A DNA stretch of 64,000 bases, taken from Onchidella celtica. Its lineage: Eukaryota; Mollusca; Gastropoda; Systellommatophora; Onchidiidae. The notes below the pieces were generated by a model that saw only the letters and a list, made by a program, of their open reading frames with translations, made no database searches and was not told where the DNA came from. Location: NCBI GenBank assembly GCA_963931925.1, contig OZ007571.1, forward strand, positions 59,088,125 through 59,152,124, read 5' to 3'. Positions 3,401 through 40,420 of the stretch are shown here, piece by piece. Position numbers and translations under genes: made by a program. Within the stretch, counting starts at the first letter, position 1. Each line of letters starts with the position of its first letter.

Positions 3401-6400
3401 TTGCAGGTGAAAATAATTCTGTACCATTCAATATTCAGATTAATCAAAGTCATCTTGTATGAACTGAAAAAAGAGCAATATTATTACTTCACCACAGAAA
3501 AAGACAGTTAATGACAGTGAATCAAATGTCCTGTCTCTTAATATAAATTTGGTTTCTTCATCCTTCCATAATACAAGCACAAATATTTTGGCCTAGATCC
3601 AGCAGATTTGACAAAGTAATTTCCTATAGGATGAGAAAAATCAGCACAGAAATGGTCCAGTGTCTGTTTGTCAGTAGCATGCATGTTCATTCTGTTAGCA
3701 AGTGCACCCGATTTGATTTAGAGCTACCAAGTCAAACGTATTATATACAGAAACAAATGCATATTACACTGAAGTGTAAGGGATTTGCAACGAAACTGCT
3801 ATTGCCAAGCTTTCAACTCCGTACAACTTCAAATTTTTGTGTATTTTGCCCAAGAATCATTACTATCTTCTGCCAGTACATTCTGATAAGGCAACCTAAT
3901 ATAATATTGAGTTGTTGCAGATAGCACAATAACAGAAAGTTAATGTAGAAATGTTTTGCAGGTTTTGAAAATCATTAAAACTTTACCAGAGAACTGAAAA
4001 AAATAAAAGGTATATTAAAGCAGACCTAGAGATGGAAGAAAAAAGAATTACAACTTGACCAATCATTGCCCGATCCATTAACCAGGTTCCATTAAGATAG
4101 AGTTGGTATTAGATTAGAGGATTTAATAACAATTCCACAGATACACTGTAACTAGACATGAAAATGTAATGCTCTGCTCTAATGGATTGTTGGATGAGTG
4201 GATGGATTGATGCATATAGGGATCTAAGGGTGGATAGATGGATGAATGACTGCACAGATGCATGTCTTAAAATTGCTTATTTTGTAACATGGCTTCTTTA
4301 TCAGGTCCCAATAAGGTTATTCTGGAAGACTTTGTCCGCATGCTTTGGGAACATAAAATTGACAAAGTAGTCATGCTCACAAATCTGATAGAAGAAGGGA
4401 AGGTAAGTTCTATTTGTCATTGTTTTCTGTTGGCATCTGTTTGATTCATTTGAAAGAGATATAGAGCTTTGGTCAGATACTAATGCAAGTGCTGGTGGCA
4501 TCAAGTTTTTGAGATAAAGAAGCATCCTAGAACTTAATGCTTTGAGTTTTTAAACTGTTTTTACAGTATTTGTGGAGCAGTGAAACATTGCATGATGGTC
4601 TTTATCTCACTTAGCTTGAATGAACCAGATTTCAAGAAAAGTACATTGAAATACTCTCATCTCCACTGCCTTCAATATGAAATTACTTTTGGATGATGGC
4701 AAAGGTTCATTCTGCCAATATGTTCCTGCTGTCTCTTTTCCAATTTTCATTTACTTTCTATGGGGTTATTTATCTCTCTCTTGAATTCCCATAAATCAGT
4801 CCATCTCTGCCATCTATTTCTTTTACATGTGGATACATTCATCTCACTCTCTGACTTCCCATAAATCAGTCCATCTGTGCCATCTATTTCTTTTATGTGG
4901 ATACATTCATCTCACTCTCTGACTTCCCATAAATCAGTCCATCTGTGCCATCTATTTCTTTTATGTGGATACATTCATCTCACTCTTTGACTTCCCATAA
5001 ATCAGTCCATCTGTGCCATCTATTTCCTTTCTATGGATGCATTCATCTCTCTCTCTTTGGTTATCCATAAACATGTTCATATCTATTACCTGTCTGTCTA
5101 CCTAATCCTTGATTCTTTTGTCCATCTATCAAGTCAGTCGGTCCTTGCATCCTTCCATCAATACCCCTACCCATCTATGCAACCTGCCAGCCATCTGACC
5201 ATATTTCTTTAGTAGAGGTATTTTCAGAGATCCAGATATCTGTCCATCCGTCTATCTGTTTACCTATTTGTTCATCTGTAATATTCCCATTTATGGAACA
5301 GAGCAAATGTGAAAGATACTGGCCTGAGGAGGATGAGGCAGAGTTTGGGGAGATAAGGATACGTTTAGCCACGACCCAAGTCTTTGCTGACTATACAATC
5401 CGGAGGCTGCAGTTGATGAAAGTAAGCAGATAGGAGGATATCACCACAAAATCACATCATTCATACAGTTTCAAGATTATAGACATTTTAGATGTCAGTG
5501 ACTATTGACCAGATTGCAGTTACAGGTTTACAATACAGTGAGGTTTTGTTTTTTCCTTGCTTTATCATTATTTTGTCAGGTTACAAAATCATCAAATAGT
5601 TCATGATTATTATTACTTTAATTACATTGGATAATAATAGCACTGTTTGTGTCGGTTTCATTGATTTCAGAAATTGATTTCATTACATAATGGGAATGTA
5701 GGCATGTGCTATCTAAATCATCAGTGTATGATATTTCTTTCAGTATTACCATAACAGCCCACAAAAACAAAAAAAAAGACATATGTGTGACAAATGCAGC
5801 TGAATATCTTATCGTCGCCCGCATGATAAAACCTCACAAAGTTGATTTTTGGCGAAAATCGTTTTTTTTGCAAAAATCTATTGTTTAGACCCTTTTCCAT
5901 CCCCTCACAAAATATTAGAACCAAATTCCATTCCTAAGTGTGAAAATTTTAACAAAACAGTTTCGGCCGCAAACCTCCTTATCCGTCACGGCCAAAGAAT
6001 GCGTACGATCAAACCTCACTAACTCTTTAGCAGGTTTTATCATGCGGGTCAAGCATTTGGCCCGCCTACCTGTCCGCATGATAAAAACTCCTAAATCCCT
6101 AGCGCCGCCCCCGAGGACAGCCTGACAAAAGACTGTTGGTGCTCGTCAATCAATCAGTAGCCATTTGTGCACAATAGCCTACTAATCCTTTGGTCATTGT
6201 CACCGGCGTATGTTTGCAGCTGTTTAACAGCACCACCCCCCACCTCCCCTCTTCCCTCCCACTTCTTCTATTCGACTGTTCCCGCTCCCTCGCAAACAAA
6301 TTTCTTTTTGCACGGTTTAATTAAATACTCACATATTAAATTATTTCAAAAGGATTAATGACATGTGCTGGTTTATTTTGCTGTATATCACAGATATTCT

Positions 6401-11900: not shown

Positions 11901-14900
11901 AGGACAGACGACGATCTTCAGATGAAGATTAGATTTCATTAGATGTTTCAGCCTTTAACTTCCTGACATCTTGTAGAACCCCGGCCACACCAAGGTCATG
12001 GCTTTCAGCGTTCAGCACCCACTTTTTTTTCATTGCCAGATATTTCTTGGGTTTGAACCGGTACCACTTTTTTGGTGCAGGTGCCTTATCCATTTTGCCA
12101 TTACTGCCACTATAAGTAACCTTGCTGGAGTACTGAGCATTAAGGTCATTTGGGTTTTGATAAATTGCATTGATTGTGAATGGCGCACAAACGAGAAATG
12201 ATGGATTGTACAGTCATAGTTGTGTTTGTTTTTTTTTAGAACTGCCATTTTATTTCTTTGTTATTTCATTATTTATATTGTAGTGCTGGTGTGGGCCGCA
12301 CAGGTACTTTCATCGCCTTGCGTAACGTGATGAGAGAGGCAGAGGCGACGGGCCACATGGATTTTTATACAACATTATGGAAGCTCAGACAAGATAGAGT
12401 CTATATGATTCAAACTGTTGTAAGTATCATGACTGAAATATCTAGCCATAATAAACTATTGTTTTGTTTCACTGTTTGTCATTTGTTTTATATGAGATTG
12501 AGATTTTTATTAAAAGCTTCAGCAATGTGTGCAGTGTTTTGGACATTTTTTTTTTCAAATTAAGCAATGAATATTCATTTATGTAAAACAAATTTTTGAA
12601 AACAAAATAAAGCATAAAGTTATTAAATTACTGACTGGTGAGACCCTTTCTTGCGCTCTTCACTGCTCTCATACCCTATGCGACCTATTCAGCCAGTCTG
12701 TTTTGGCATTTTGGAAAGAACAAGACACCGCAGTGAATAATGCTATGTGGTACAGTAGTCTCCGTCTAAGAACTCGCCGCCTTAGAACCCGATCCGCCTT
12801 AGAACCCGCTGTTGCCGCGAAACCGAATTTTTTCACTGTAATTTACATGCGTAAGAACCCGCTCTGAGACGAAAAATCCGCCTAAGAACCCGGCATTTGA
12901 CCGAGAGACGAGCACACTTTTACGTAAAATGTCCATATCATTAAACGCAAATTCTCTTTCAAGTAGACGGGATAGAACAAAGCCATACAGTACAGTGAAA
13001 ACGAGCAGGTGGAGGGAAGGTAGGGGGAGGCGAATCGTACAAAGGGTGGAGCCCAGTTACGTCTTTCATGTGCAAGCAGGCCACCCCTAGACTAAATTAG
13101 CATAGTCATCACCTAACATCTATTGTTGTCTAACTCGAGGGGCAGAATTTTATACGTAATTGACCACGTGCTTGGTTTGCAAGGCATATGTACTTAGGGC
13201 TGATTGTGGTTAATACATATTAGGGTATCACTGGGCCTTCACAACTTGATTGTTCAGTCTGAATCATTCCATTCATTACACAATCATCACTGTAAGAAAA
13301 GAGCATTCTGCTAGCCATAAGTCGTAACTTTGACCATTCGCCAAAAAAAAAAAAAATTTTTTTTAAAATTAATGTTCAACGCTTAATTTTCATTATGAGG
13401 TCACGACCCAGGTCCGAGCAATCAAGGGGGATAAGCCATGGACACGGGTAGTCAAATATGGGTGGCATCCTTTGGTATCCGCCTAAGTGCCCGGTCCGCC
13501 TAAGAACCCGCTTTTTCTGTCTCCCGTTGACCGGGTTCTTAGGCGGAGACTACTGTATATACAGTGCACTCTCCCGATTACGACATCTCCGAATAACGAC
13601 ATTCTCCCGATAACGACATTGACCCCCGGTCCCGATTTTTTTACTATATGTTATTAGTAATAAAACTCTCTAAATAGCGACATACTTTTTAGACCACTCT
13701 CCGGATAACGACATTGAGTTAGCAATAATCGGCTGTGACTTTGCTAGATACAAAAATAAAAATAGCTAAAATATTGTTTCCGGTCAGTTTCATTTCATTC
13801 TCTGAGCCAATAAAAACACTTCTTTTCCGACCAATGAAATGTCCTACTAGAGGCACCTCATAGCCAATGAGATCGCTTTGTTATCGGCCAATGAGATCGC
13901 TTTGTTATCGGCCAATGAAAACACACCTGTGTCTATTGTCGTCGGAACAAAAAGGGTGACGCGCATTAAATGAGTCAGTCATCACATCGCTGACCGCTGA
14001 ATCGATTGTATTCACCCATGTGTTCAGTTGTATTATTAAATACAGCTGCACTCATGCCGGTCCCAAGCCCGGATAAACAACAGAGGGAAAATGACACACA
14101 AAAAACAACAACAAAAAAAACAAAACAACACACACACACACTTCGTGTATTTTACATGTTTGGAAAGTCCGATCACTGATCACCCACTATGGTTGGTACG
14201 TTACATTCTAAGGGTCTAACCACACCCCTTTTTCCGCCATCTTGAAAATCTCCGAATAACGACATGTTCCCGATAACGACATGCACCTCTGGTCCCGAGC
14301 CATGTCGTTATCGGGAGAGTGCACTGTACTTTTTTTGTCAATATTTTGTTAAAGATTAGCATTGGATGCCTTTTCTGCATAGTTTTCCTCTAATTACAAG
14401 TTGTCCATGTTTAGAAAAGTCACAATGAGCCAAATGTAGCTGAAATGAACGAAGTTTAAGGGCAAATTTTGCATATGTATCTGTCTAGTGCCTTGTGTTT
14501 TAATTCCATATCTTACTGAGAATGAAATATTCAAATCATGGCTTTATTTACGTGAAAGAACAAAAACTTTGAAAGGATATTTTTAGGCAAAAACATGGCA
14601 GTATGGGTTTTTGGTATTTACCAAATTTTTGATACTGAAAATACATTTTGTATTCCCAAAATATATTAACCTCCAAGGATTAGCTATCTCCATTTTGTGT
14701 ATTTTGGCATATGTTATGTCAGCTTATTGTGATAAAAATTGATGATGGTCTGGCACAATTCCTTGGCCCCAGAAATTTCCCAATTTTGCATTTTTTGGGT
14801 GGTGGAAACACAGTGAGATCTTGTTCCACATCATTTTTTATTTCTGACCACACCGTAGAAATACAAAAAAATACATTATGATCAAACATCAGCATCACGT

Positions 14901-17900
14901 TAAGTTGAACAATGTAATGTCAACAAAGGCACATTTTGTGTGTCATTCCAGGCAAAAGAAAAGATAAAAACAAAACCCCTTTAGGAGACTGGGAATGGAT
15001 GAAAATTTTGCACAAATTCTTAGGATTTTTTGGTTACAATATCATATCTTTACAGGAACAGTATATGTTTTTGCACGAGGCAGCCCAAGTGGCCATGGTG
15101 TGTATTGGTACAACTGTCACCTCAGTAAATATTTTGGACAGAATTGATTTGCTAGAGAGAGTCTCTGGTTCAGGACAGACCAACATGGAGAAAGAGTTTA
15201 AGGTATCAGAACTTAATTAGGACTAATTCACTTTACTCTTTTTTGTAACACTATTGACTGTCTATTATGCTGTTCCTGATTATGATGGTGACAGAGATGG
15301 AGATCTTGAGCTAAAATCCTGTCATCAATTTATTAGCAAGGATGACACTCTTATCAAAATACATGTACAAATGTGAATGATGGCAGTCATAACCGTATAA
15401 GTGAAAATGACAGCCATAATGATGGTGATTGTGATAACATTGTTGATTATGGGTGTGGTTTGATTGTTATGGTGAGTGAAGCAATAGTTGTGATTGTGAT
15501 AATGTGGATAATGATGATGTGACACAGGTTGTTGTTGTTATTACAAGTTACTTCACAGTGTTCTCAGCAAAACAGTACATTACTGTTCTGAAATAAGAGT
15601 ATAAATGTGTTAAATATTTTATTGTAATTTCTTCTGACCATGTTTCAGGCTGTCTGTCATGTGTGTGCCGACAAACAGGGAGTGACAGGTGAGGAAGATG
15701 AAGGAGATGGTGTCAACAACACCTACATGAACAGTCGCTCTGCCTCCAACAAGCTCAAGAATAGATTCAGTAATATTTTACCCAGTGAGTAAGGTTGTTT
15801 TATATATAAAATGTAATTGTTAGTTTTAGTCCCACATGACATCATTATCATTCATCTCTAAGTTCATGCTTAACAAATTCCATTTCTCATTTTTATGTTT
15901 TTCATGTTGGGGGAGTGTGTTTGCATGTGTATGTGTGTTTCCTGTTTACATTGTGCATTTGTTTTTGATTGGGAAGGCGGGAGAGCATCATGCAATTCTT
16001 ATTCTTAATATTTAAGCAGAATAGCTGCACTACACCAAGAGGTACTAAATACGATAGATGGGAAAGCTGGGGTTTCTGCGTTCATAAGTTTCGCCACCTA
16101 GCCGTGAATGCATGACATATGTCAGCAGTGGCTTATATTGCAAAGCCGAAGAGAGAAAACACTGAGTTTTGTTCATGTTCAGCCATCACCCTGGACCTCG
16201 ATGGAAGTCGCTTACTTTGTAATTTTAACTTAATTCGCTGGTGGAAACCTCTGGGTTTTTTTTTTCTTTTTTTGCAGTAGCAATCAGACGAAATTGTATG
16301 TAAACTTACCATCATATTGAAAAATAGATCTAGTAAGTATATTTTCATATAAGACAGGACAGAGGTGGATGAAAAATCTCATTCTCTCTTTCTCTTTCCC
16401 TTACCTACTGATTTTATTGTGCTTTGTTTCATGGAGATACTCATTGTAAATTAGATATTGCATATTATTTTAATAACCCAGCATTGAAATTGCCTCTGGA
16501 GGCGAAACAGATCGGTTTTGTGCCTTATTTTCTATGCAAAATACAGTTAATGATGTGCTGTTTAGGGTGCTGAGAGTGGGCAGGGTCTCTGACGACCCGT
16601 GAAAGTGTGAAAATATTCAAAAAAATATGTTTTCTAAAAAATCAATACTTTCATTAAACTAAATGTCAAGGGCATAATGTGGGACTTTAAATAAGTAATT
16701 TTAAGTAATATTCAAGCCAGTTTTGGAAGCTGTATGTACTGCAGTTACAGAGAAAACATGTTAATTTTTCTTTCAGGTCCTCAAATATATACATAAGTAA
16801 CAAAAACATAACAGTTAAACATTAAATTTACGTTAACATTCACACAAAAAAAAAGCAGCTAAAAATTGAAAGAGATTCTAAATCTGGACGCATGTCAATA
16901 ATGGGTAATCTTCTTCTCCTTCCATTTTGTTGCTTAGCTCATGGCAACTACAAACTGTGAGTCAGCTTAGGTAAAATATTTCTTAAAAAATCAGTGCTAT
17001 TGTTAAGCTAAATTTCAAAGGCATCATTGTTAACTTCAAGTAATTTGAAATGTTAATGCCAATTTTGAAAGCTGTAAATGCTGCAGTTACTGAAAAAAAC
17101 ATGTCAGTCGTGTTCAAATCTTCAAATTATGTATAGAGAGAGATAGATACCAATTTTTTTTTTGTGGGGGGGGGGGGAGGGGGTGGGGGGGTGTTCCTTA
17201 TTACTAGTAACCATTTTGCATCCCAACATAATTATCAAACTTCAAAAAATTGATTGAATTGACTTATATTCAGATTTAATACTACTCAGAAAGAGGGGAT
17301 CTTTGGCACTTAGGTCTGTGAGTGTTGATTCTGAAATTAGACTATTTATGTACTATTTGTGTTTCAGAGTGTAAAAAAAATCTAGAAGAAAAGTATTGGC
17401 ATAGAATTCTTAGTTACTTTAGAAATGCACACATTTATTTTCCACAGAGGAGTTCTACAGGCCATATTTGTCATGTGAGACAAGAGACTTAAGTGATTAC
17501 ATCAATGCTGTCCTGCTACCGGTACAGTTTAACCATTCTGATGATTAATTTCACTTTCCACACCTCTCTCTCTCTCTCTCTCTCTCCCATCCTCCCTCAC
17601 TTCCGCTCTCTTCCTTGCTCTTGCTCTTGCTCTCACTCTTTACACAGAGACCATTAATGCTAATAGTGATTTGACTTAAGTGTTGGATGAACTACGAGTG
17701 GCTAGTGTGGTTACTGCGTGGGTTCAATAGTAACTCCCTTAAGGATACACAGGATTAACAAACACAGGGTTCTGCTGACAATCTTATTTATTCAAAAAGC
17801 CTAACAAAGGTATCACTACCAAAAAGGCATAGGAAAAACCCTACCAAGAAAAAGAAGCCCAACCAGCCATAAGCTGGAACAAGAGAAAAAGACAAAAATA

Positions 17901-20900
17901 TGATTAGGATATAATGACAACAGTAATCATGCAATCAATGGTGGACATACATAGTAATAGTATTAAGTATTAAATCAAACAACAACAACATAATATAGAA
18001 TTTAAGCAATAACCAACTGGATGCATGGAATAAAATAGCGCTAAGGTTAATGAATAACAACTACAAGTGGCTATATCATATACACAAGGAGTTTCCTAGT
18101 ACACTGGCAACATAAACTAATGTACTAATCAAAGTATGAAGGACATAACAAATGAAGGGGCAAGAACACAATAGTTTCGCTCCCCTGAGCCGGTGTACAG
18201 CACATCCAGAGTGGCCAATCCATTTAATAACGCAGTGGCCAACATGGCCCACTGACCGTCCATAACACAGACGCTGCATCCCAATGCAGGCCATCCTCAT
18301 AGGCCCACTCCCATTATTAGTACTAACCCGCCCCAGGGCTATTGTATTGGTTACTTCCCTTCCCAATCGATACTGAAGGGTCATGCCCTTTGACCTTAGC
18401 CGCGGAGCTATGCCGCCAGGCTAACATGCGTATGACACACCACTAGATACATAAAGTAGTGTGTACATTCGAAACTATGTCCTTCACACAACCTACGAAT
18501 TCAATGAAACACAGCACGTCTGTAATATCTATTATCTATAATAGGTAGATCTATAGGCGGGACTCATTGCAACATGTGCAAACTCACTGAAACATTGTTC
18601 ATCCACCGCCGCACATAGAGCAATCCTGGGGCTCACCCATGTGAGGCCCAACTAATATTATACATCTCCAATACATGTAATTAATTACACATCTTAAACA
18701 CTAAACACGCAATCACAATCACACTGCTCTCATTGTGGTACTGGCAAGGTACACAAATACCCGTAATACAATCAAGTGTATAGTGCCGCTCGCTGTAACA
18801 TAAGCCATCCACATTAACATGTCAGGAAATCCTCACTGCCTACCACAACAAGGCAATGCTACACATACACTATATATATATATATATGCACACAAGCGAA
18901 TCGTGATAGCTTGGTTAGCGAGCCATCATTATCATCTAGCACCGCAAACGTTAACTTTGACAATAAAGTCACAATATCAAGACACTGCACTGCACCGCGC
19001 ATCTTACACGTCTAATGACAATGGCAATTACCGTTGAGCCTGACTCATAATAGTCTCTGTAGATCAGCATTCTCTACGCGGCATCCCCGAAAGGGGGGGG
19101 GGGGGGGTGCGCAAATTAAAGTCACTTCTAATATAATAGTCTCCAACTTACCCAAAGTCTCTCTGCTACTGGCGCAACTGGACTAGGCCATGTTTTGGGC
19201 GAGGCGCGCCACGGCAGGCCGCCGCCGATCTATTGTACTGCAAGGTCCACTTGTGCTTCCTATCGTTGCGGCGTCTTTGATGGAGTCTACTGACCACTCG
19301 AACTGGCATCATCTTTATGAGCCAGCGCGGACGTCCGAGAGGGCTATTACGTAGTCCAGTGTTGGACAAGTGAAAGGCTCGGACATTGAGTCCAGCCGAA
19401 CAACATAACTGGTTAGGGTCCTAACACAATCGAATTTACAGTACGGTTAAAAGGGTGCACACAAAAGTCAATTAGGTATCCCAGTAAACTGCAGAAATTA
19501 CTCTATGGTCCCCTCCAGCTATAATTGAATAAATTTGACCCAGGTTGGATTTATCGGGGATAACATGCGTCTAACTCGTGGTTTACTTTAAATCCGAGAT
19601 CCTCTTATTAATTATTTCAATAGGACATGTGCATCAAAGTACAACGAAATTAGTACCATTATAAAGTAGAAACTTGCTGCTAAAATTCTAACTGACTACT
19701 TATACCAGAAACCCGGTAATAGTTTTAATATAAATTTTCAAAGCTTCAGGACTAACAACATTGGACAAATTTGTGCGGGATACTTTCGTCCATTAATACG
19801 ACGTATCTCCATTGATAACAAACGGTATCATGAGTACCTATATTGTACCGATAGGGTATTGCCTACTCTCAACAATGAATTCGGGTTCCCGTCTTTCTGT
19901 CGGTGGATAACAACGAATGAGCGAGTTGTAAGAAACTTAAAGCCATGATATAAGAGCTGGAAGCCCGGTGGTCAAAATTTCCAATTGACCAATCAAAATG
20001 CTCGCTTTCCACCGTGATGTGAATAACGGGTCCCGCGCTACTATTACAAGGGAAATAATCCAATTAATGGTACTCGGCCAAGTGTCCATAAACTACTATG
20101 AGTGGCCGTCCCTTACATCACGCACTAGCGTTACCATGAAAGCACATATTAAAAATAGAAAATCGTTCATACTCTCACATAAGGGCGCAGTAACATTTTA
20201 TTCTGCCAGCTAGCAATACATATATAAACTTATTTTCCTTGCTACAAATTCTTCTGATTTAAGAGTTTGAGTCAATATTTAAAATTGGAATTTATAAAAG
20301 TTATTGAAGGAGAGGAGTGGTTTCTTTTTTAGAAATTGTTTTATGTTTTAAAATTCACTGTGCCAATAAATTGCTTACATTAGTCACTATTTAGCTGCAA
20401 AGGTTGCCTGAGAGGTATACCATTTAATAGAAAAAATGCTGGGCTGTTTTACTGCTCTTACTTTATAGCTCATATTTTTATATGCTTTGACCTTATACTT
20501 TATTGACAATGCACCATCTTTACATGAATCTAAACCATAAATCATGGAATTCTGCAGAGTTTCATCAAACAGAATCAACAAATCCTGACTCAGTTACCAC
20601 TTCCTACAACAGTCCTTGACTTCTGGCGACTGGTCACTCAATACAAAGTTTCACTGATTGTGGCTTTTGAGGCTGATGCAACAGATGATGTGGTAAGAGT
20701 CATCCTTTCACAACCAATGGTGGTATTCCAACATGAATTTGACCTCATTTCTCTGCTCCTATTCTTTTTCATCAGTCTACTATATCCTCCACAAACCTCT
20801 GTGTTTGAGTGGTGTCCTTTCTCTTGCTATAACTCTGTGGTGCCTAGACACAAAATGTGAGATATGCAAAATTGATTTAAAATAATCAGGTAAGTGCAAA

Positions 20901-23900
20901 AATGTAAAAATATGTATCAAAAACAAGAAAAAAATTCTTTGATAATCCAGAAAGTGTTATGAAAATAAAAATTGGGCACCAAGTGACATTTTTTCAAATT
21001 ACCAAACATTGGATAGTGCAGGCTAAAATGGACACCATCTCAATTTATCTTATGAAGCAAGCAATCTGAAACAAAAAGTTTTAATATTAATTTCATGCTT
21101 CCTCTACATTTGCAGCACCAATGTGCAGTAATGTATACAATATTACATCTGGCTATGAATTTTTTTTTTTAAATCAGACAATTGGCCACTACCTACCACA
21201 GGAAAATGAACCTATGCAAGTTGGATCATTTGATATAGAGACTCAGCCTGTCACACGAGACACTTTATGGGAGAAGCAGAATCTTTGTGTCACCATCCAC
21301 AAAAAGAAGAAGACAAGATTGTCAACTTCTTCATCAGTAGGTTGATTTTTTTTTTATTAATTTCTTTCAGGAAAGGAGTCATCAATATGTGCTTAGGATT
21401 ATATGGCCCCAACCATAGGAACTGTGATAAGCTACTGTAGCCATATACAGTGGTACTCTTCATGCTTTCTTTGACTTTGGGAATGTGAGAGGATGAACGA
21501 TTTTCTATTTTTAATATGTGCTTTCATGGTAACTCTAGTGCGTGAGTGAGGGACGGCCACTCATAGTAGTTTATGGACACTTGGCCGAGTACCATTAATT
21601 GGATTATTTCCCTTGTAATAGTAGCGCGGGACCCGTTATTCACATCACGGTGAAAAGCGCGCATTTTGATTGGTCAGTTGGAAATGTTGACCACCGGGCT
21701 TCCAACTCTTATCATGGCTTTAAGTTTCTTACAACTCGCTCATTCGTTGTTATCCACTGACAGAAAGACGGGAACCCGAATTCATTTTTGAGAGTAGACA
21801 ATACCCTATCGGTACAATATAGGTTTTTATGATAACGTTTGTTATCAACGGAGATACGTCATATTAATGGACTGAAATATCCCACACAAATCTGGCAAAT
21901 GTTGTTAGTCCTGACACTTTGAAAATTTATATTAAAACTATTACCGGGTTTCTGGTATAAGTAGTCAGTTAGAATTTTAGCAGCAAGTTTCTACTTTATA
22001 ATGGTACCAATTTTGTTGTACTTTGATGCACATATCCTATTGAAATAATTAATAAGAGGATCTCGGATTTAAAGCAAACTATGAGTTAGACGCATGTTAT
22101 CCCCGATAATTCCAACCTGGGTCAAATTTATTCAATTATTGCTGGAGGGGACGTTAGAGTAATTTCTGCAGTTTACTGGGATACCTAATTGACTTTTGTG
22201 TGCACCCTTTTAACCGTACTGTAAATTCGATTGTGTTAGGGCCCTAACCGGTTACGTTGTTCGGCTGGACTCAATGTCCGAGCCTTTCACTTGTCCAACA
22301 CTGGACTACGTAATAGCCCTCTCGGACGTCCGCGCTGGCTCATAAAGATGATGCCAGTTCGAGTGGTCAGTAGACTCCATCAAAGACGCCGCAACAATAG
22401 GAAGCACAAGTGGACCTTGCAGTACAATAGACCGGCGGCGGCCTGCCGTGGCGCGCCTCGCCCAAAACATGGCCTAGTCCAGTTGCGCCAGTAGCAGAGA
22501 GACTTTGGCTTATGGCTGGTTGGGCTTCTTTTTTTGCTTGGTAGGGTTCTCCTATGCCTTTTTTGTTTGGTAGTGATACCTTTGTTAGGCTTTTTGAATA
22601 AATAAGACTGCCAGCAGAACCCTGTGTTTGTTAATCCTGTGTATCCTTAAGGGAGTTACTATTGAACCCACGCAGTAACCACATTAGCCACTCGTAGTTC
22701 ATCCAACAGGTAGATTTTTGTTTTCATTGAATATGACCATATTAATTATTATAACGATTAGACTATTACACCATGTTTTCCTCCATGCTTGTCAACAGTT
22801 TCCTTTAAATCACAACTGTTTTATGTCTCTAGTTGTATGACTGACCTATGAACACTTTCCGTGCCATGTCTGTGAGGAAATTTTCCAATAATCCTATTCC
22901 TGCTGAAGAAAGTCTAGTAGGTTGCCATCAATACAGTTGTGCAGATTTCAATACCATTACACTTTTAGCCTCAGCAGTAACTTATTGTTCACATCGCTAG
23001 ATCCAAGCATTCCAAGGATTGAATCTCCATTTTGGTACACTCCAGCTAACAATTCTCACTGTGTTTTTAAGTCATTCATTCATCAACAACCTTGAAGGGG
23101 CCCAAACTTTGTGTCTGATGTAGCCTGATGATGGTGTAAAGAGACACAAAATCTTAACCAAGAAAAAAAAAGAAAAATTACAAATTTTATATTCAGTGAC
23201 CATTGATTGACATGATACAGTCCAATCCACTTATCTCGACATGACTTTTCTCGACATTCTGGGTAACTCGACACAATTTTTAAGTTCCATCCTGTTCCTT
23301 CTTTAATGCTACTAAATATTTCCCCGTAACTTGACATGTTATTCCATTCTTTCCTCTTATATCGACACATTTCTCTCCGACCTCGGCAAAACAAGTGCAC
23401 TAGATCTACAACTGTGCTACCAAAAATGCCCACGCAACTCCTGGCATATAAGGTCTCTATTTCTTTTTGCGGTGTTGGCGGGGAGGGGTAGGAGAGGGGT
23501 GTGTGGACACAGAGGATGACCCTCGGCTTCAGTAATGCAAGTGTGGAGTGCCATGCATACGCGTACGGCAGTAAAAGTAGGCCTACAGAGTACTACTACA
23601 GACTGAGTAATTTTTTTTCCCCCACAAAACATTCGAGCGCCGTTGATATTAGGCCTTGACCTAGATCTCTTGGTTAAGTGCCGTACTGTGTGTGTATCAG
23701 TATCATTACTTCTTCTGAAGAAACAGTCAGGTCGAGGTTAAAAAGAAAAAAGTAAAGCACTGCCAATATGATTGCTACGGCATTTCGCCGATGTCGGCAA
23801 ATCTTTTCCACGCAACTGCTCCCGCTCAACAATGATATTGGAGGAATGGGTGACAGTATGCCGATAATTAAAAGAAAAGGGGACATAATTGCGTTATTTA

Positions 23901-32422: not shown

Positions 32423-35400
32423 CATCATCATTGCCTTTCTCACCCTGGATCAGGGTATAGGCCACCAACAAACACTTTCCATCCCTCTCTATCATGGGCC
32501 AGTCTCTTTACATTATTCCAAGTCTTTCCGCTTCGTTGCACATCATTTTCTCTGGCTCTTCTCCACGTTCCGCGCGGCCTTCTTCTTGATCTCTTGCCCT
32601 GGGGATTCCAATCCAATACCTTCTTCGCGATGCTGTTTCCTGGCCTCCTGAGAGTGTGGCCGATCCATCTCCATCGCCTCCTACCAATTTCCTCTCTGAC
32701 TGGGCTCTGTCTTGTTCTTTTCCAAACAATTTCATTGCTGACCTTGTCTGTCCATCTGATCTTAAGTAGCTTCCTCAAACATCTGTTGATGAAAACTTGG
32801 ATTCTCTTTATGCAGGCCTGGGACGCATTCCAAGTCTCACATCCATACAACAGGACTGACTTCACGTTCGAGTTGAATATCCTCAGCTTTGTTTTTAGAG
32901 ATATATCCTTGGTTCTCCAAATCTTGCTTAAGGATGTGAAAGCTGCCTGTGCCTTTCCAATTCGTGCTTTGACTTCTGCCTCTGTTCCTCCCTTATTGTC
33001 AATGATACTACCAAGATAGCAGAAGGACTCTACATCTTCCAGTGGTTGATCTCCTACTTTGACTTGTTCGCTTGGGGGTGCAACAATTTTTAGGACCTTC
33101 GACTTCGCAGGATGTATCCTCAATCCAATAGATTCTGAAATTTTGTTTAGAGCTGTAGTCTTTGCTTGCATCTGGTCGTGTGTGTGCGACAATAGTGCCA
33201 AGTCATCTGCAAAATCTAGATCGTCCAGCTGTGTCCATGGGGTCCATTGTATGCCATTTCTTCCTCCATTGGTGGTTTCTTTCATAAGCCAATCAATCAC
33301 CAGAATAAACAGAAATGGGGACAGCAAACAACCCTGCCTAACACCAGTCTTGATATCAAAGCTGTCAGTAAGCTCACCATCGTGTACGACTCTGCAACTT
33401 GTCCCCTCGTACATGCTCTTGATAAGATTCACCATCTTCTCTGGGATTCCATAATGTCTCAATATTCTCCACAGCGTTTCTCTATCGATGCTATCAAAGG
33501 CCTTCTCGTAGTCAAGGAAGTTCACTATCAGTTGGGAGTTCCATTCTAGCGACTGCTCTACTATAATTCTCAGCGTGGCGATCTGGTCGGTGGTTGATCG
33601 ATTACTCCTGAAACCAGCTTGCTCCTCACGAAGTTTTTGGTCTGTTGCATCCTGTATTCGCTTGAGAATAATCCGATTGAAAACCTTTCCTGGGATGGAG
33701 AGAAGTGTGATTCCTCTGTAGTTACTACAATTGCTGAGGTCCCCTTTTTTTGGAAGCTTCACGAGGTGTCCCTCCTTCCAGTCCTTTGGAAACTTGCCTC
33801 CGATCCAAATCCTCGAGAATAGTGAGTGCAGACCCTCTGCAGCCCCAGCAGCATCTGCCTTCAGCGCCTCTGGTGGGATCTGGTCTGGTCCAGCTGCCTT
33901 GCCTTGATTTAACTGCTTTATGGCATCATTAATCTCTGCTTTAGTCGGAGGGTCGCAACTGATCGGTAAATCATTTCTTGCGGGTAGAATGTCGGGTGGG
34001 TTGCTTGGTGGAGGTCTGTTCAAGAGGCTACTAAAATGTTCTATCCATCTTTTTGCCTGAGCTTCCTTTCCAAAAATAGCCTTCCTGTTGTAATCCTTGA
34101 CAGGAACTTCCGGTTTTCCATATTTTCCAGCAAGAGTCTTTGTAGTCTGGTAGAGGATCCTCGTGTGTCCTCCTGTTGCTGCCTTCTCTGCTAACATTCC
34201 TATGAACTCCTCTTTGTCTTTTTTAATTGATTTTTTGACCTCTTTAGCTGATGCTCGGTACTCTTCCTGGTTACCAACTCTTGAGCTTCTTGTACGACTT
34301 GCATTTACCTGTTCTTTTAGGTCTCTTCTTATCCTTATCAAGTCCAGTGATTTTTGACTGATCCATTCCTTGTGTTCCACTTTCTTTTCCCCAAGAACAT
34401 CCTGACATGTCGATGTAAATACTCCTTTTACCTTAGCCCAGTGAGTCTCCAAATCTACTGTCTCTTCGAGGTCAACAAGGGGTTTGAATCTATTCCTCAG
34501 TGTCAGCTGAAACTCTTCCTTCTTGTCTCCATCCAGAAGGCTCACTTGAAACTTTCTCCTCTTTGTTCCTGCTCTGGTACCTTGTTTCTTGAGGCGGAGT
34601 TTGAGTCTTGCCAGCAGCATGTGATGGTCAGATCCAACATCAGCTCCTCTCTGTACTATGACATCCTCCAGTGAGCGTCTGAATCGTCGGGTGATGCAAA
34701 AGTGGTCAATCTGGTTTTCAGTTACTCCATCCGGTGAAATCCAAGTGGCCTTATGGATCCTCTTGTGTGGGAATACTGAACCTCCAATCACATAGCTGTT
34801 AAATGCGCAGAAACTTGCAAACCGCTCTCCATTCTCATTCATTTGTCCCAAACCATTGCGCCCCATAATGTCTTCATACCCTGTATTGTCCTGTCCTATC
34901 TTGGCATTGGCGTCTCCCATTATAATGTTCACATCTTTTCTTGGCAATGTGTCAACTATTTCCTGAAGCTGGTTGTAGAAATCGTCCTTGTCCTCATCGG
35001 TTGCTTCATTTGTTGGGGCGTATATCTGCACAATGTTCATGTTGATGTTCTTGTTCTTTGTAGTAAATGATGCCAATATAATTCTCCTTCCATAGGGTTC
35101 CCATCCCCTCAGTGACCTCTGGGCGTGCTTGCTCAAGATGATCGCTACCCCTTCTGTATGCTTTTTGTCCTCCCTTCCAGAATACAAAATCTTTTCCCCA
35201 GAATTAAGTTGTTTCAGTCCGGACTGTATCCAGCGGGTCTCGCTAACTCCAAGTATGTGCAGTCTGTATCGCCTCATCTCCGTTGTAACCTGGGCACTCT
35301 TTCCTGCTTCATACATGGAGCGGACATTCCACGACGCAATCCGGAGTGACTTGTTTGATGAAGGAGCAGTCGGGCCAGTGGAGTCCTTTCGGCTTTGTCC

Positions 35401-35513
35401 ATTGTCCTTCATTGAATCTACAGGTGCAGATGCTCCCCCTTCTCCCAAGATAAAAGACTGATTTAAAGTATTTGCTTGTGTTTCTGTAACTGGTTTATTT
35501 TTACAGGGTGGGT
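32423..35513 (-). mobile_element. RTE-like LINE insertion with 13-bp target duplications
   Basis: AGTTGTTTTCTAT occurs on both sides (32410-32422 and 35514-35526) as a perfect 13-bp duplication. The minus-strand 3' end is a very short UTR followed by an ATGATGATG-type tail, typical of RTE elements. The single long open frame is unbroken, so this is a young, apparently near-full-length copy. Confidence 0.9.
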
Positions 35514-35559
35514 AGTTGTTTTCTATACTGACCACAAAAATAAAATTGCGAAATTTCAC
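32440..35559 (-). CDS. LINE polyprotein: APE endonuclease and reverse transcriptase
   Basis: The protein nicks target DNA and copies its own RNA into it. An AP-type endonuclease comes first (RIASWNVRSM, ILGVSETRW, VQIYAPTNEA, IMGDANAK, GADVGSDHHMLLARLKLRLK). Reverse transcriptase follows (NYRGITLLSIPGKVF, FLDYEKAFDSIDRE, TGVRQGCLLSP, catalytic LDFADDLALLSH, then LLYGCETWNAS and RRWRWIGHTLRR). The first 16 or so codons of the 1,039-codon frame lie in host DNA beyond the target duplication. The element's own start is probably the methionine of MKDNGQSRKD. The single-ORF layout suggests RTE. Confidence 0.92.
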   Translation of the reverse strand: MKFRNFIFVVSIENNYPPCKNKPVTETQANTLNQSFILGEGGASAPVDSMKDNGQSRKDSTGPTAPSSNKSLRIASWNVRSMYEAGKSAQVTTEMRRYRLHILGVSETRWIQSGLKQLNSGEKILYSGREDKKHTEGVAIILSKHAQRSLRGWEPYGRRIILASFTTKNKNINMNIVQIYAPTNEATDEDKDDFYNQLQEIVDTLPRKDVNIIMGDANAKIGQDNTGYEDIMGRNGLGQMNENGERFASFCAFNSYVIGGSVFPHKRIHKATWISPDGVTENQIDHFCITRRFRRSLEDVIVQRGADVGSDHHMLLARLKLRLKKQGTRAGTKRRKFQVSLLDGDKKEEFQLTLRNRFKPLVDLEETVDLETHWAKVKGVFTSTCQDVLGEKKVEHKEWISQKSLDLIRIRRDLKEQVNASRTRSSRVGNQEEYRASAKEVKKSIKKDKEEFIGMLAEKAATGGHTRILYQTTKTLAGKYGKPEVPVKDYNRKAIFGKEAQAKRWIEHFSSLLNRPPPSNPPDILPARNDLPISCDPPTKAEINDAIKQLNQGKAAGPDQIPPEALKADAAGAAEGLHSLFSRIWIGGKFPKDWKEGHLVKLPKKGDLSNCSNYRGITLLSIPGKVFNRIILKRIQDATDQKLREEQAGFRSNRSTTDQIATLRIIVEQSLEWNSQLIVNFLDYEKAFDSIDRETLWRILRHYGIPEKMVNLIKSMYEGTSCRVVHDGELTDSFDIKTGVRQGCLLSPFLFILVIDWLMKETTNGGRNGIQWTPWTQLDDLDFADDLALLSHTHDQMQAKTTALNKISESIGLRIHPAKSKVLKIVAPPSEQVKVGDQPLEDVESFCYLGSIIDNKGGTEAEVKARIGKAQAAFTSLSKIWRTKDISLKTKLRIFNSNVKSVLLYGCETWNASQACIKRIQVFINRCLRKLLKIRWTDKVSNEIVWKRTRQSPVREEIGRRRWRWIGHTLRRPGNSIAKKVLDWNPQGKRSRRRPRGTWRRARENDVQRSGKTWNNVKRLAHDREGWKVFVGGLYPDPG

Positions 35560-37013
35560 AGCTATGCTGTTTGTGCTTGGTTATTGATATAAACATGCAC
35601 ATCATGTATAGTATCTTTACATTATTTGATGCTTTCATAGGAATAGTCCCTCATTTTTTTAGTTTTCACTGTATCATAGGAATAAGCCCTCCTTGAGAAA
35701 TGAACTAAGCAGAGTAAATTTTTTGCATTTTTTTTTTTTGTTGTGTTTTGTATACTTCTTTTATCCCATTTTTGGAAATTTACCTTAGTGTCATTGCAGC
35801 CCAGTTACAACTGGAGCAGTCATGTTGTCTCCACAGCATAGCTGGACCTTCATGGATTGATATCAGTAATCACCCATTGACAATGCATTTTACACAAAAT
35901 CATCTTGCATCTGTATCAGAATAACTAAATACATGTATAGTTATCATTTGTTTGATAATATCTTTCATGTCACATGTATGTTTTTAATGTGGTTAAAAAA
36001 GCAAAATCTGGATGTTGACCACTTTCTCTTGTAAGTCACAGGGTCAAGCTATACTTGCATTTATTGGTATCATGTCTATATATAGTAACTGAAGTGTACT
36101 ACTCATCTGTTGTTGTTTTTTTTATGTACATGTATATAAAATATTTATTTATACACCTAAACAGAGTGCCAGACATGGGGTGTGCCTGCACAAAAAAAGT
36201 ACAGAGGCTGCAGAGAAGGGCAGTGCGAAGGTTGAATTTGTAGATTGAGCTGGCCAACATCGGCAAAAGTATCTTTCGGTCTTTGAACCAGTTGCATGTA
36301 ATTGGTTTGCCTATCTATTTCATCCCATTCTTTGCAACTACATGTGCTGCCTGCCTTTGGAGAGAGCTGCAGCTGTGTGTGCAGGGGGCCTTTTGCTTCA
36401 CGAACTCACAATATGGCTCATTGATCATTATGCTGTAATTCAGTCTGTGTCAATTGTAAATGGAAACAAGGATAATAATTTACACTTGTAACTCATTTTA
36501 ATTTCTCCTTTCATATTCCAATTGATACTTTGTGGTGTCTGTCAGACCCACCTCTCAAATAGAGAAAAACTACCATACACTACCAATTGATGAAATACAA
36601 AAACCACAGAAAAACTGGGGTCGCAGTATTTTCTGTGGTATTTTCTGTCTTCCCTTCTTCTTTGCATTTTATTGTATCATTTGGGTATTATTGCTTATGT
36701 GAGGCTTTGTTACATACAACTTTTTCTTTTTGCCAATTTTTTACCCTACACTACCAATTCTTGCCTCATTTTATTGGTAAACTGCTGTATCAGGGCTGAC
36801 AGGCCTCACATGTGCATAATAGGAATAAACCAAAGTCATGGTCTTTTATGAAGAAATGGCAGTTACATCACAACAATTTAGGAGAATAGTCCAAATGTCA
36901 GCAAAAACATGCACTTTTCTGCAAAGATATGGCAAAAAACAAGGTGTTCTAGATTTGACAGGTGCAGGGATTTGAAAAGGCCATCATGTTTTCACAATTC
37001 TAATGTTTGTAAG
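35527..37013. other. Intergenic sequence
   Basis: No gene. A short stretch at about 36,165-36,243 translates as MGCACTKKVQRLQRRAVRRL and could be the end of a LINE reverse transcriptase, but it is too short to be sure. Confidence 0.5.
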
Positions 37014-38454: not shown

Positions 38455-39633
38455 ACATGTACCTAATGTTTGGATGAACGTTTGCCAGTTGTGTCATGAA
38501 GTCGGTCACCAGTAAAAATGTACATGTATAAAGTTTGAAGGTTTTTGTATTTCACATTAACTGAGGAGAAGGGTAAGCTGTTCTGCAATTGCATCAAGTT
38601 CTGTTTTATTAATATATATGGAATAGATATGGCAAAGGATGACCAAGTGATAGGTAATGATACTTCATGCTTTTCTGCATACTTAACTGAACAGTTTTCA
38701 CCATCCAGTATACAGGCTAGTGATGAACTTTGTATTGTATTAACTTTAACGGCACTTAGGCACGATAATGGCCACTTTGCACCTCTCATGGTTGTTTCAT
38801 TCTCTCTCTTTGGGCTAGCTTTCTTTTAGCCCTCAGTTGCCTGTAGGTAAGATCAGATAAAAGTGAAGTTAAAGATCAAACTGGAAAAGACCCGTGCTGA
38901 AAAGTATGTCTACGAATTTTGTAAATATGATAAAAGTCCGTTAAATCAACTTGTAGAGTTCGAGCTCTTTCAGAAATGACAAGATGCACTGCGGGTCCAA
39001 GCTAGAAAATAATTCTTTCATGGAACCACAGGCATAATGTCTTGGATATGCACGAAGTCTACACATTCAGTTAAAATGTGTTTTATAGAATAGTTGGCAA
39101 ATGTAGTGATGAACTACATGTCACTATGGTTGCTTCTTGATAGCTTGATTATCTTTGCCAGGGCGCTATACTTCTTGAAAGATGGCTGCCTGTAAGTGAC
39201 AGCTTATGACAGAAATAAAACTTTGGCCTCTGGAAGAACTGAGATTAGGATCATTGTTTGAAATGAAGTTTCATGCCATGATAATTGTTTCGTGTTTTTG
39301 TCACAAGTACAGCTAAATGTTGGCCTATAGATTAAGCCAGTCAACAGCTTTCTTGAGTCAGGACAGCTCAGTGCAAAACAGTTGCTGACATTTTTCTCAT
39401 TGTACTTTGCTACAGATCAAAGACAGCTTTAGGCGTCAACAGCACCCTTGGTCTATTGCGTTTAAAATTAATGTACACCAGTCGAGCCCTCATGCAAGCT
39501 GCGTTGGGTGTCAGATCCAGTTGGCAGTGACAAATTGGATAGTTTTGTTGAACAGTGTTGCTGTGTGTTTTTTCTTCTGTCTGTTTATGTGAGTGAGTGA
39601 TTGAGCAAGCGAAAGAGCGAGAGAGAGATCATT
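38455..39633. other. Intergenic sequence
   Basis: Overlapping open frames of about 100 codons on both strands at 38,463-38,829 show no recognisable family. A GA-rich run directly precedes the next MITE. Confidence 0.5.
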
Positions 39634-39635
39634 TA

Positions 39636-40418
39636 CAGTGCACTCTCCCGATTACGACATCTCCGAATAACGACATTCTCCCGATAACGACATTGACCCC
39701 CGGTCCCGATTTTTTTACTATATGTTATTAGTAATAAAACTCTCTAAATAGCGACATACTTTTTAGACCACTCTCCGGATAACGACATTGAGTTAGCAAT
39801 AATCGGCTGTGACTTTGCTAGATACAAAAATAAAAATAGCTAAAATATTGTTTCCGGTCAGTTTCATTTCATTCTCTGAGCCAATAAAAACACTTCTTTT
39901 CCGACCAATGAAATGTCCTACCAGAGGCACCTCATAGCCAATGAGATCGCTTTGTTATCGGCCAATGAGATCGCTTTGTTATCGGCCAATGAAAACACAC
40001 CTGTGTCTATTGTCGTCGGAACAAAAAGGGTGACGCGCATTAAATGAGTCAGTCATCACATCGCTGACCGCTGAATCGATTGTATTCACCCATGTGTTCA
40101 GTTGTATTATTAAATACAGCTGCACTCATGCCGGTCCCAAGCCCGGATAAACAACAGAGGGAAAATGACACACAAAAAAACAACAACAAAAAAAACAAAC
40201 AAACAAAAAAAACAAAACAACACACACACACACTTCGTGTATTTTACATGTTTGGAAAGTCCGATCACTGATCACCCACTATGGTTGGTACGTTACATTC
40301 TAAGGGTCTAACCACACCCCTTTTTCCGCCATCTTGAAAATCTCCGAATAACGACATGTTCCCGATAACGACATGCACCTCTGGTCCCGAGCCATGTCGT
40401 TATCGGGAGAGTGCACTG
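39636..40418. mobile_element. Pogo-like MITE, family B, copy 2
   Basis: This copy has the same orientation as 13562-14326 and nearly the same sequence. TA flanks both ends (39634-39635 and 40419-40420). The main difference is 18 extra bases in the A/CA-rich tract near 40,175-40,232. Near identity suggests recent movement. Confidence 0.88.
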
Positions 40419-40420
40419 TA

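Follow-up and report, generated by a model that had tools for sequence, protein, structure and literature searches.

A stretch of 64,000 nucleotides from the genome of the onchidiid gastropod Onchidella celtica (contig OZ007571.1, positions 59,088,125 to 59,152,124; called the window below) contains two mutually inverted copies of one repeat family, copy 1 on the minus strand and copy 2 on the plus strand, which differ by a block of 1,278 bp. Analysis of the window and of the 1.14-Gb assembly that contains it makes it very probable that the repeats belong to a long terminal repeat (LTR) retrotransposon with a complete spliceosomal intron of about 1.28 kb inside its LTR, and that this intron has been lost repeatedly through reverse transcription of spliced genomic RNA.

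Two inverted copies and an exactly bounded block

The first-pass annotation of the window had described inverted copies differing by an exactly removed block, and this held true: copy 1 had 1,278 bp extra, and at the junction in copy 2 no base was gained or lost. The sequences on either side of the block (referred to as exon 1 and exon 2) aligned between the two copies with 95.7% identity over 1,029 columns and 93.6% over 202 columns; the identity without gaps was 96.2%. The TG...CA ends of copy 1, its TAAG flanks and the AATAAA near its 3' end, all claimed earlier, were likewise found in place (Table 1). The target duplication of copy 2 was imperfect (GGAA and GGTA).

The block lies between ACTTTGG and CTTATGG, starts with GTAAGT, ends with TTTTTGTCTTTTTCTCTTGTTCCAG and includes CCTAATC upstream of a strong pyrimidine tract. 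Within the window, GTAAGT had a frequency of 2.3e-4 per base, and CAG preceded by 16 or more pyrimidines in 20 bases had one of 2.0e-4 per base; the chance of both block ends matching was about 9e-8, with the branch point left out of the estimate. All 34 aligned intron-bearing copies retained the GTAAGT start and the CCAG end unchanged, with intron lengths of 1,250-1,310 bp. A GT donor, a branch point, a pyrimidine tract and an AG acceptor, the hallmarks of a spliceosomal intron, were therefore all present and kept across copies, and from this sequence anatomy we infer that the block is a spliceosomal intron inside the LTR which would be removed by splicing.

Presence and absence of a block is also the pattern left by an insertion, and GT-AG ends would suit an introner. 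The block might thus be a mobile element, introner-like or another transposon, that entered the LTR of one lineage, with the intronless form being the original. However, the block edge slid by one base only between copy 1 and copy 2, so that no duplicated target is present at the block; when the edges were checked, no target duplication was found beyond this one shared base, and the block ends matched as inverted repeats at 7 of 30 letters. The repeated exact absence described below would also be left unexplained, and we regard an insertion of this kind as very improbable. A Helitron, a terminal-inverted-repeat element and a target-duplicating insertion were each rejected as the origin of the block because the edges carry no such footprint. 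Insertion may have been the first origin of the intron.

LTR anatomy of the repeat family

The end of the repeat, followed by five free bases and the primer-binding site (PBS) TGGTGTCAAGAAGTGGGA, was found at 287 + 275 = 562 places in the genome (up to 3 mismatches; control, 0). The primer tRNA is presumably leucine-like. The polypurine tract (PPT) AGCAGGGGAGAA preceded the repeat in the intronless copies L033, L045 and L057 and in the intron-bearing copy L028. The majority of the copies read were solo LTRs.

LTR spacing was analyzed between same-strand neighbors among the first 100 exact matches listed for each state. A short class comprised 17 intron-bearing pairs spaced 3.52-3.68 kb apart (mean, 3,601 bp) and 21 intronless pairs spaced 2.23-2.41 kb apart (mean, 2,315 bp), the difference between the means, 1,286 bp, being due to the intron. 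Matches of one LTR subtype, subtype C, were spaced at 3,607 and 2,317 bp, with 26 pairs in each state, tandem arrays included, and also formed a long class of seven intron-bearing pairs at 7.51-8.04 kb (one at 7.51 kb, one at 7.81 kb and five at 8.01-8.04 kb) and four intronless pairs at 6.64-6.71 kb. The subtype C and long-class values come from a hand-picked subset of the listed places that had a near neighbor, 57 of 100 intron-bearing and 53 of 100 intronless. Full-length elements were accordingly present in both states and with two internal sizes: most listed pairs leave about 1.07 kb inside, and the rarer long class would leave room for about 5.5 kb, as deduced from the spacing. The interiors of two short-class elements, one with the intron and the other without, were 95.9% identical over 1,121 bp and carried this PBS and PPT. 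The intronless element L047/L045 is young, since its LTRs differ at 3 of 1,221 sites and AAAG is present on both outer sides; its internal region is interrupted by other sequence.

Direct TG...CA terminal repeats around an internal region, a fixed 4-bp target duplication, a PBS and a PPT are the features of an LTR retrotransposon, and all were observed. The PBS junctions, the paired LTRs and the GT-AG block together support the earlier description of the family as an LTR with an intron. The TGTGA start of the LTR fits the TGTNR termini of Ty3/Gypsy elements given in the accessible part of PMC2836005, but a placement in that superfamily would be tentative, and the family was not filed as Gypsy.

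The best matches were mostly single units with 4-bp duplications (the first 28 intron-bearing ones almost all single), and GGATGAAC forms a short inverted repeat at the two unit ends, as might be expected if the 2.5-kb unit were instead a Ginger-like DNA transposon with TGT...ACA ends and a 4-bp duplication. This has almost no chance of being correct: 562 copies run on into a PBS, paired direct repeats surround an internal region with a PPT, and an exact intron loss has no route in a DNA transposon. Furthermore, the terminal inverted repeats of 40-270 bp and the CCGG/CCGT targets that the accessible part of PMC2836005 gives for Ginger1 were not seen here. The DNA-transposon identity was abandoned because the PBS, the PPT and the paired LTRs had been found.

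Tandem arrays of alternating LTRs and internal regions were also observed in both states (G000:C5:73851228-73860560, C9:19751124-19769161 and C3:19232707-19243721), with near-constant steps of 2,326 bp, about 3,600 bp and 3,663 bp; unequal exchange or multi-LTR copies would give such arrays. At L063 (G000:C1:107402895-107404325), an intronless LTR is followed directly by an inverted 3' piece of an LTR that is 89% alike.

Abundance of the two forms and exactness of intron absence

The copies in the genome were sorted by the presence of the block, as the first-pass annotation had proposed, using 25-base junction patterns with up to 2 mismatches and no gaps, from which more diverged copies escape. 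The intron acceptor plus exon was matched at 854 + 823 = 1,677 places and the closed junction at 475 + 520 = 995, while the reversed-pattern controls gave 0. Both states were therefore abundant, with intronless copies making up about 37% (995 of 2,672) of the counted junctions. The outcome that was to mark the block as an insertion (most copies without it, copy 1 the sole carrier, and a flanking duplication) did not occur, given these counts and the lack of an edge duplication.

With copy 1 as the query, the best 40 of 3,189 candidate places were scored, and 35 of these spanned the query fully or bar one or two end bases. The search with copy 2 gave 41 rows, representing the best 40 of 3,431 candidate places; the top 40 all lacked the intron and were full length within four bases. 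In 39 of these 40 best hits to copy 2, the ends of the two exons were joined with 0 extra bases, and in the other, one base was missing. A perfect 4-bp target duplication of its own was found for 33 of the 35 full-length intron-bearing copies and for 30 of the 40 intronless copies; of the ten others, three lay after a PPT, two lay before a primer site, three had one mismatch and two were unclear. L025 and L026 shared flanks and represent one duplicated locus, and L021 and L022 are probably duplicated too. Since copies in both states have target duplications of their own, they are separate insertions rather than deletions in place, and the intron is exactly absent from many of them.

Intron state of paired LTRs

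The states of neighboring LTRs were compared over the stretch of contig C1 that both exact-match lists span, 1 to 68.82 Mb (100 and 27 matches). Among the listed matches, neighbors at LTR spacing formed 18 intron-bearing and 5 intronless pairs, and none of the 23 was mixed. By simple proportion, about 8 mixed pairs would be expected if the states were independent. Four mixed neighbor rows occurred at other distances, namely, 868, 1,960 (opposite strands), 4,186 and 6,493 bp. The agreement of paired LTRs is predicted by reverse transcription, which builds both LTRs from one template.

One intron loss or many

Before the tree counts, the truncated copies L069-L073 were dropped, as were L026 (which duplicates L025) and the locus-named entries that represent the window's own two copies; the linkage tests additionally dropped L045 and L022. 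In a first tree, copy 2 was nested among the intron-bearing copies, with a support of 0.999 for a clade with L021, L022, L025 and L026. The exon-1 tree of 40 intronless and 34 intron-bearing copies required 17 state changes, 5 of which were left at a node support of at least 95. Forcing the intronless copies into one clade was rejected (difference in log likelihood, delta lnL, 214.7; approximately unbiased test, p-AU, 6.8e-64). The intronless copies are thus scattered, and the data reject a single change, be it loss or gain, which also argues against insertion of the block into one lineage.

A scattered distribution could also arise if the intron had been lost (or gained) once, long ago, founding two subfamilies, and the state had then been shuffled among LTR backgrounds by recombination during reverse transcription. 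Reshuffling is real, as shown by the decay of linkage within about 120 bp and by the conflict between exon-1 and intron trees, and first-strand transfer between two packaged RNAs would reshuffle the state. Two observations weigh against a single event. First, over the last 100 exon-1 bases, 33-35 positions distinguish LTR subtype A from subtype C (seven subtype C copies compared), the closest of them lying 13 bases from the junction, yet both subtypes occur in both states, so that one loss would need a crossover within 12 bases. Subtype C was found in 945 intron-bearing and 448 intronless copies; the A/B context was found in 597 intron-bearing copies, all 40 intronless LTRs from the copy 2 search were type A, and one A/B-context variant was present in 60 intron-bearing and 87 intronless copies. 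Second, linkage reached its minimum at the junction. Across the junction within 120 bp, the mean r2 in 39 intronless copies was 0.021 (15 pairs), below that at each of 606 exon-1 background positions, as would be expected had 1.28 kb separated the two sides until recently, which favors repeated loss. Sites beside the junction were nearly uninformative on intron state (r2 of at most 0.11). Among 28 further intronless copies, seven were subtype C and nine subtype B; these were picked by an exact 25-base match and their linkage is dominated by subtype structure, and they were excluded from the linkage claim. We therefore consider a single event unlikely.

Because both subtypes occur in both states and linkage is lowest at the junction, repeated loss is favored. 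Several observations weigh against this reading. In the midpoint tree, the loss-only count was 27 and the gain-only count 24, and hence this tree gives no direction. Nucleotide diversity was slightly higher in intronless (0.0321) than in intron-bearing copies (0.0276), both sets being best hits, which would suit the intronless form as the original one into which the block was inserted. Linkage was near background beyond about 120 bp, and the exon-1 and intron trees of the same 34 copies conflicted, with a Mantel value of 0.25 compared with 0.75-0.93 in 40 one-tree simulations. When a minor-allele count of at least 3 was required, 16 of 636 background positions were as low in linkage as the junction, and neighboring linkage positions are not independent. 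The 40 intronless copies, as best hits to copy 2, favor the exact form, and gapless patterns would overlook inexact removals. Further LTR spacings differed from the two short-class ranges, at 3,827, 5,117 (twice), 6,144 and 7,975 bp for intron-bearing and 1,986, 3,255 and 8,792 bp for intronless copies. Lastly, the full elements with two such repeats that the first-pass annotation had proposed to look for were found, as LTR pairs in both states and 562 LTR-PBS junctions; short-class interiors measure about 1.07 kb, and the two that were read had no open stretch above 126 codons (the longest in L084), with no integrase or reverse transcriptase gene seen.

As expected of copackaged retroviral RNAs, recombination moves the intron state between LTR backgrounds. 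With recombination between copies this strong, the state changes on the tree overcount losses and an exact count of losses is prevented. Haplotypes did not count them either: between the two states, none of the junction-flanking haplotypes of 100 + 60 bases was shared, and five of 40 + 40 bases were. The variant GACGTTGG was present as a junction haplotype in four intron-bearing copies. Allowing for recombination, the intron was probably lost in more than a single event. The earlier proposal that the intron can be lost during replication is thus supported by its exact absence from many inserted copies, and we amend it from a single loss to a lasting two-form family whose states circulate and recombine.

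Two side observations concern exchange between copies. The intron segment at about 513-768 (34 copies) had two distinct alleles across copies, with a mean distance of 0.08 compared with 0.01-0.04 elsewhere in the intron; this mosaic of intron-middle alleles points to recombination. Seven subtype C copies (L085, L087, L097, L103, L104, L109 and L112) had very different last 100 bases before the junction and the same exon 2, as if the part with the promoter and the R (repeat) region had been swapped.

A proposed route of intron loss

The following route rests on LTR anatomy and on standard retroviral reverse transcription. Since AATAAA lies 3' of the intron, the intron would be contained in the genomic RNA at least at its 3' end. 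Transcription may start near position 22369 (copy 2 coordinates), about 140 bases before the donor, which would place the intron in R at both ends of the RNA. The TATA-like and initiator-like motifs of copy 2 are spaced as in core promoters, and the last 260 bases of exon 1 were about half as variable as the remainder (0.016-0.018 versus 0.024-0.038 by segment). The host spliceosome would cut the intron from part of the genomic RNAs, and the spliced RNA would stay a good template, as the intron sits in the LTR, outside the coding and packaging regions. Splicing in the 5' R would yield intron-free strong-stop DNA still able to pair with the 3' R, and splicing in the 3' LTR could yield the same end product. 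Reverse transcription of the spliced RNA would then produce two identical LTRs, both without the intron, and insertion of the resulting DNA by the integrase would duplicate 4 bp of the target. Intron-bearing copies would arise from unspliced RNA by the same route.

We suggest tentatively, and at somewhat below an even chance, that, among the intronless copies (roughly 1,000), hundreds each stem from a natural splice-out of their own, that packaging, reverse transcription and recombination routinely involve spliced as well as unspliced RNAs, and that the intron behaves as a replicating two-state allele of the LTR which the majority of copies keep through selection or incomplete splicing. If so, the family would be a natural retrotransposition reporter on a population scale.

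Features of the window and host context

The coordinates of both copies are collected in Table 1. Exons of a receptor tyrosine phosphatase were found between them, at about 20556-21345 (residues 2-41 matched with an E value of 4.7e-6, from an approximate query), and because of these exons both LTRs appear to lie in introns of one host gene, one in sense and one in antisense orientation. The sense LTR would bring a poly(A) signal into the host gene. The window also contains a HOOK exon of the host, a LINE-like open frame of 1,046 residues with endonuclease and reverse transcriptase domains (32440-35580, minus strand), and another repeat in two direct copies (13557-14328 and 39631-40420), which are 97.5% alike and have internal tandem units.

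Table 1. Coordinates of the two LTR copies and their parts in the window
Feature	Position	Strand	Description
Copy 1, solo LTR with the putative intron, TGTGAGAG...CCAACA	17681..20179	-	TAAG target duplication on both sides
Copy 1 exon 1, LTR part 5' of the intron, 1,028 bp	19152..20179	-	U3 (unique 3') and predicted first part of R
Copy 1 putative intron, 1,278 bp, GTAAGTTGG...TTGTTCCAG	17874..19151	-	Donor TTTGG/GTAAGT; branch-point-like CCTAATC; acceptor TTTTTCTCTTGTTCCAG/CTTATGG
Copy 1 exon 2, LTR part 3' of the intron, 193 bp	17681..17873	-	Predicted rest of R with AATAAA; U5 (unique 5')
AATAAA in copy 1 exon 2	17787-17792	-	After the block
TAAG target duplication, left of copy 1	17677..17680	.	
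TAAG target duplication, right of copy 1	20180..20183	.	
Copy 2, LTR without intron, 1,225 bp, TGTGAGAG...CCAACA	21484..22708	+	Flanks GGAA and GGTA
Closed junction ACTTTGG/CTTATGG in copy 2	22508..22509	+	
Possible core promoter of copy 2	22341..22372	+	Predicted; TATA-like CATAAAG at 22341, initiator-like TCAGTA at 22367
Poly(A) signal AATAAA of copy 2	22597..22602	+	3' of the junction

Relation to known systems and significance

In HTLV-1 and the foamy viruses, a splice donor lies inside the R region of the LTR and the acceptors lie downstream in the genome. In the present family, by contrast, donor and acceptor are both within one LTR. One intron of the Drosophila Penelope element reportedly sits inside its terminal repeat. 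Penelope-like elements likewise retain introns in their copies, but according to the accessible parts of PMC3846280 and PMC12910113 they have pseudo-LTRs and an endonuclease route and keep their introns, whereas the present family has true LTRs, a PBS and a PPT and has lost the intron frequently. The plant LTR retrotransposons Ogre and BARE1 resemble it in having an intron in their RNA and both spliced and unspliced forms, and differ in that their introns sit between or within coding regions rather than inside the LTR (PMC12786077 and PMC3735527, as far as accessible). The same sources link the introns of Ogre, BARE1 and EVADE to the production of subgenomic RNAs. The authors of the BARE study state, in the accessible part of PMC3735527, that elements of this type have to keep their spliced RNA from being copied and that amplification from barley DNA failed for copies of spliced BARE RNA. 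In contrast, 995 closed junctions were counted in the present genome. Among engineered elements, the closest counterpart is the intron-marked Ty element of 1985 (part of PMC12786077), in which the intron was gone from new copies, showing an RNA intermediate; that intron was engineered, whereas the present one is natural, has the same outcome on a population scale and also persists in the majority of counted copies. Phrase searches of the open-access literature, with subscription papers mostly outside their scope, returned no description of a natural intron inside an LTR in the passages displayed, the remaining matches being judged by title; matches to the bacterial LtrB intron gene and to the lentiviral vector LTR1 did not describe one either. 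On our best reading, the family is an LTR retrotransposon whose spliced RNA would be replicated.

Retroelements are expected to bar spliced RNA from replication, because genes or packaging signals are usually lost in splicing. For an intron wholly within the LTR this cost would not arise, since reverse transcription rebuilds both LTRs. For annotation, sorting LTRs by their length would divide a single family into two, and gaps in LTR alignments may be introns where their ends are GT-AG. For the biology of the family, the 995 intronless among 2,672 counted junctions would document, in a natural setting, the frequency with which spliced genomic RNA is copied, which opens tests of splicing efficiency, strand transfer and recombination.

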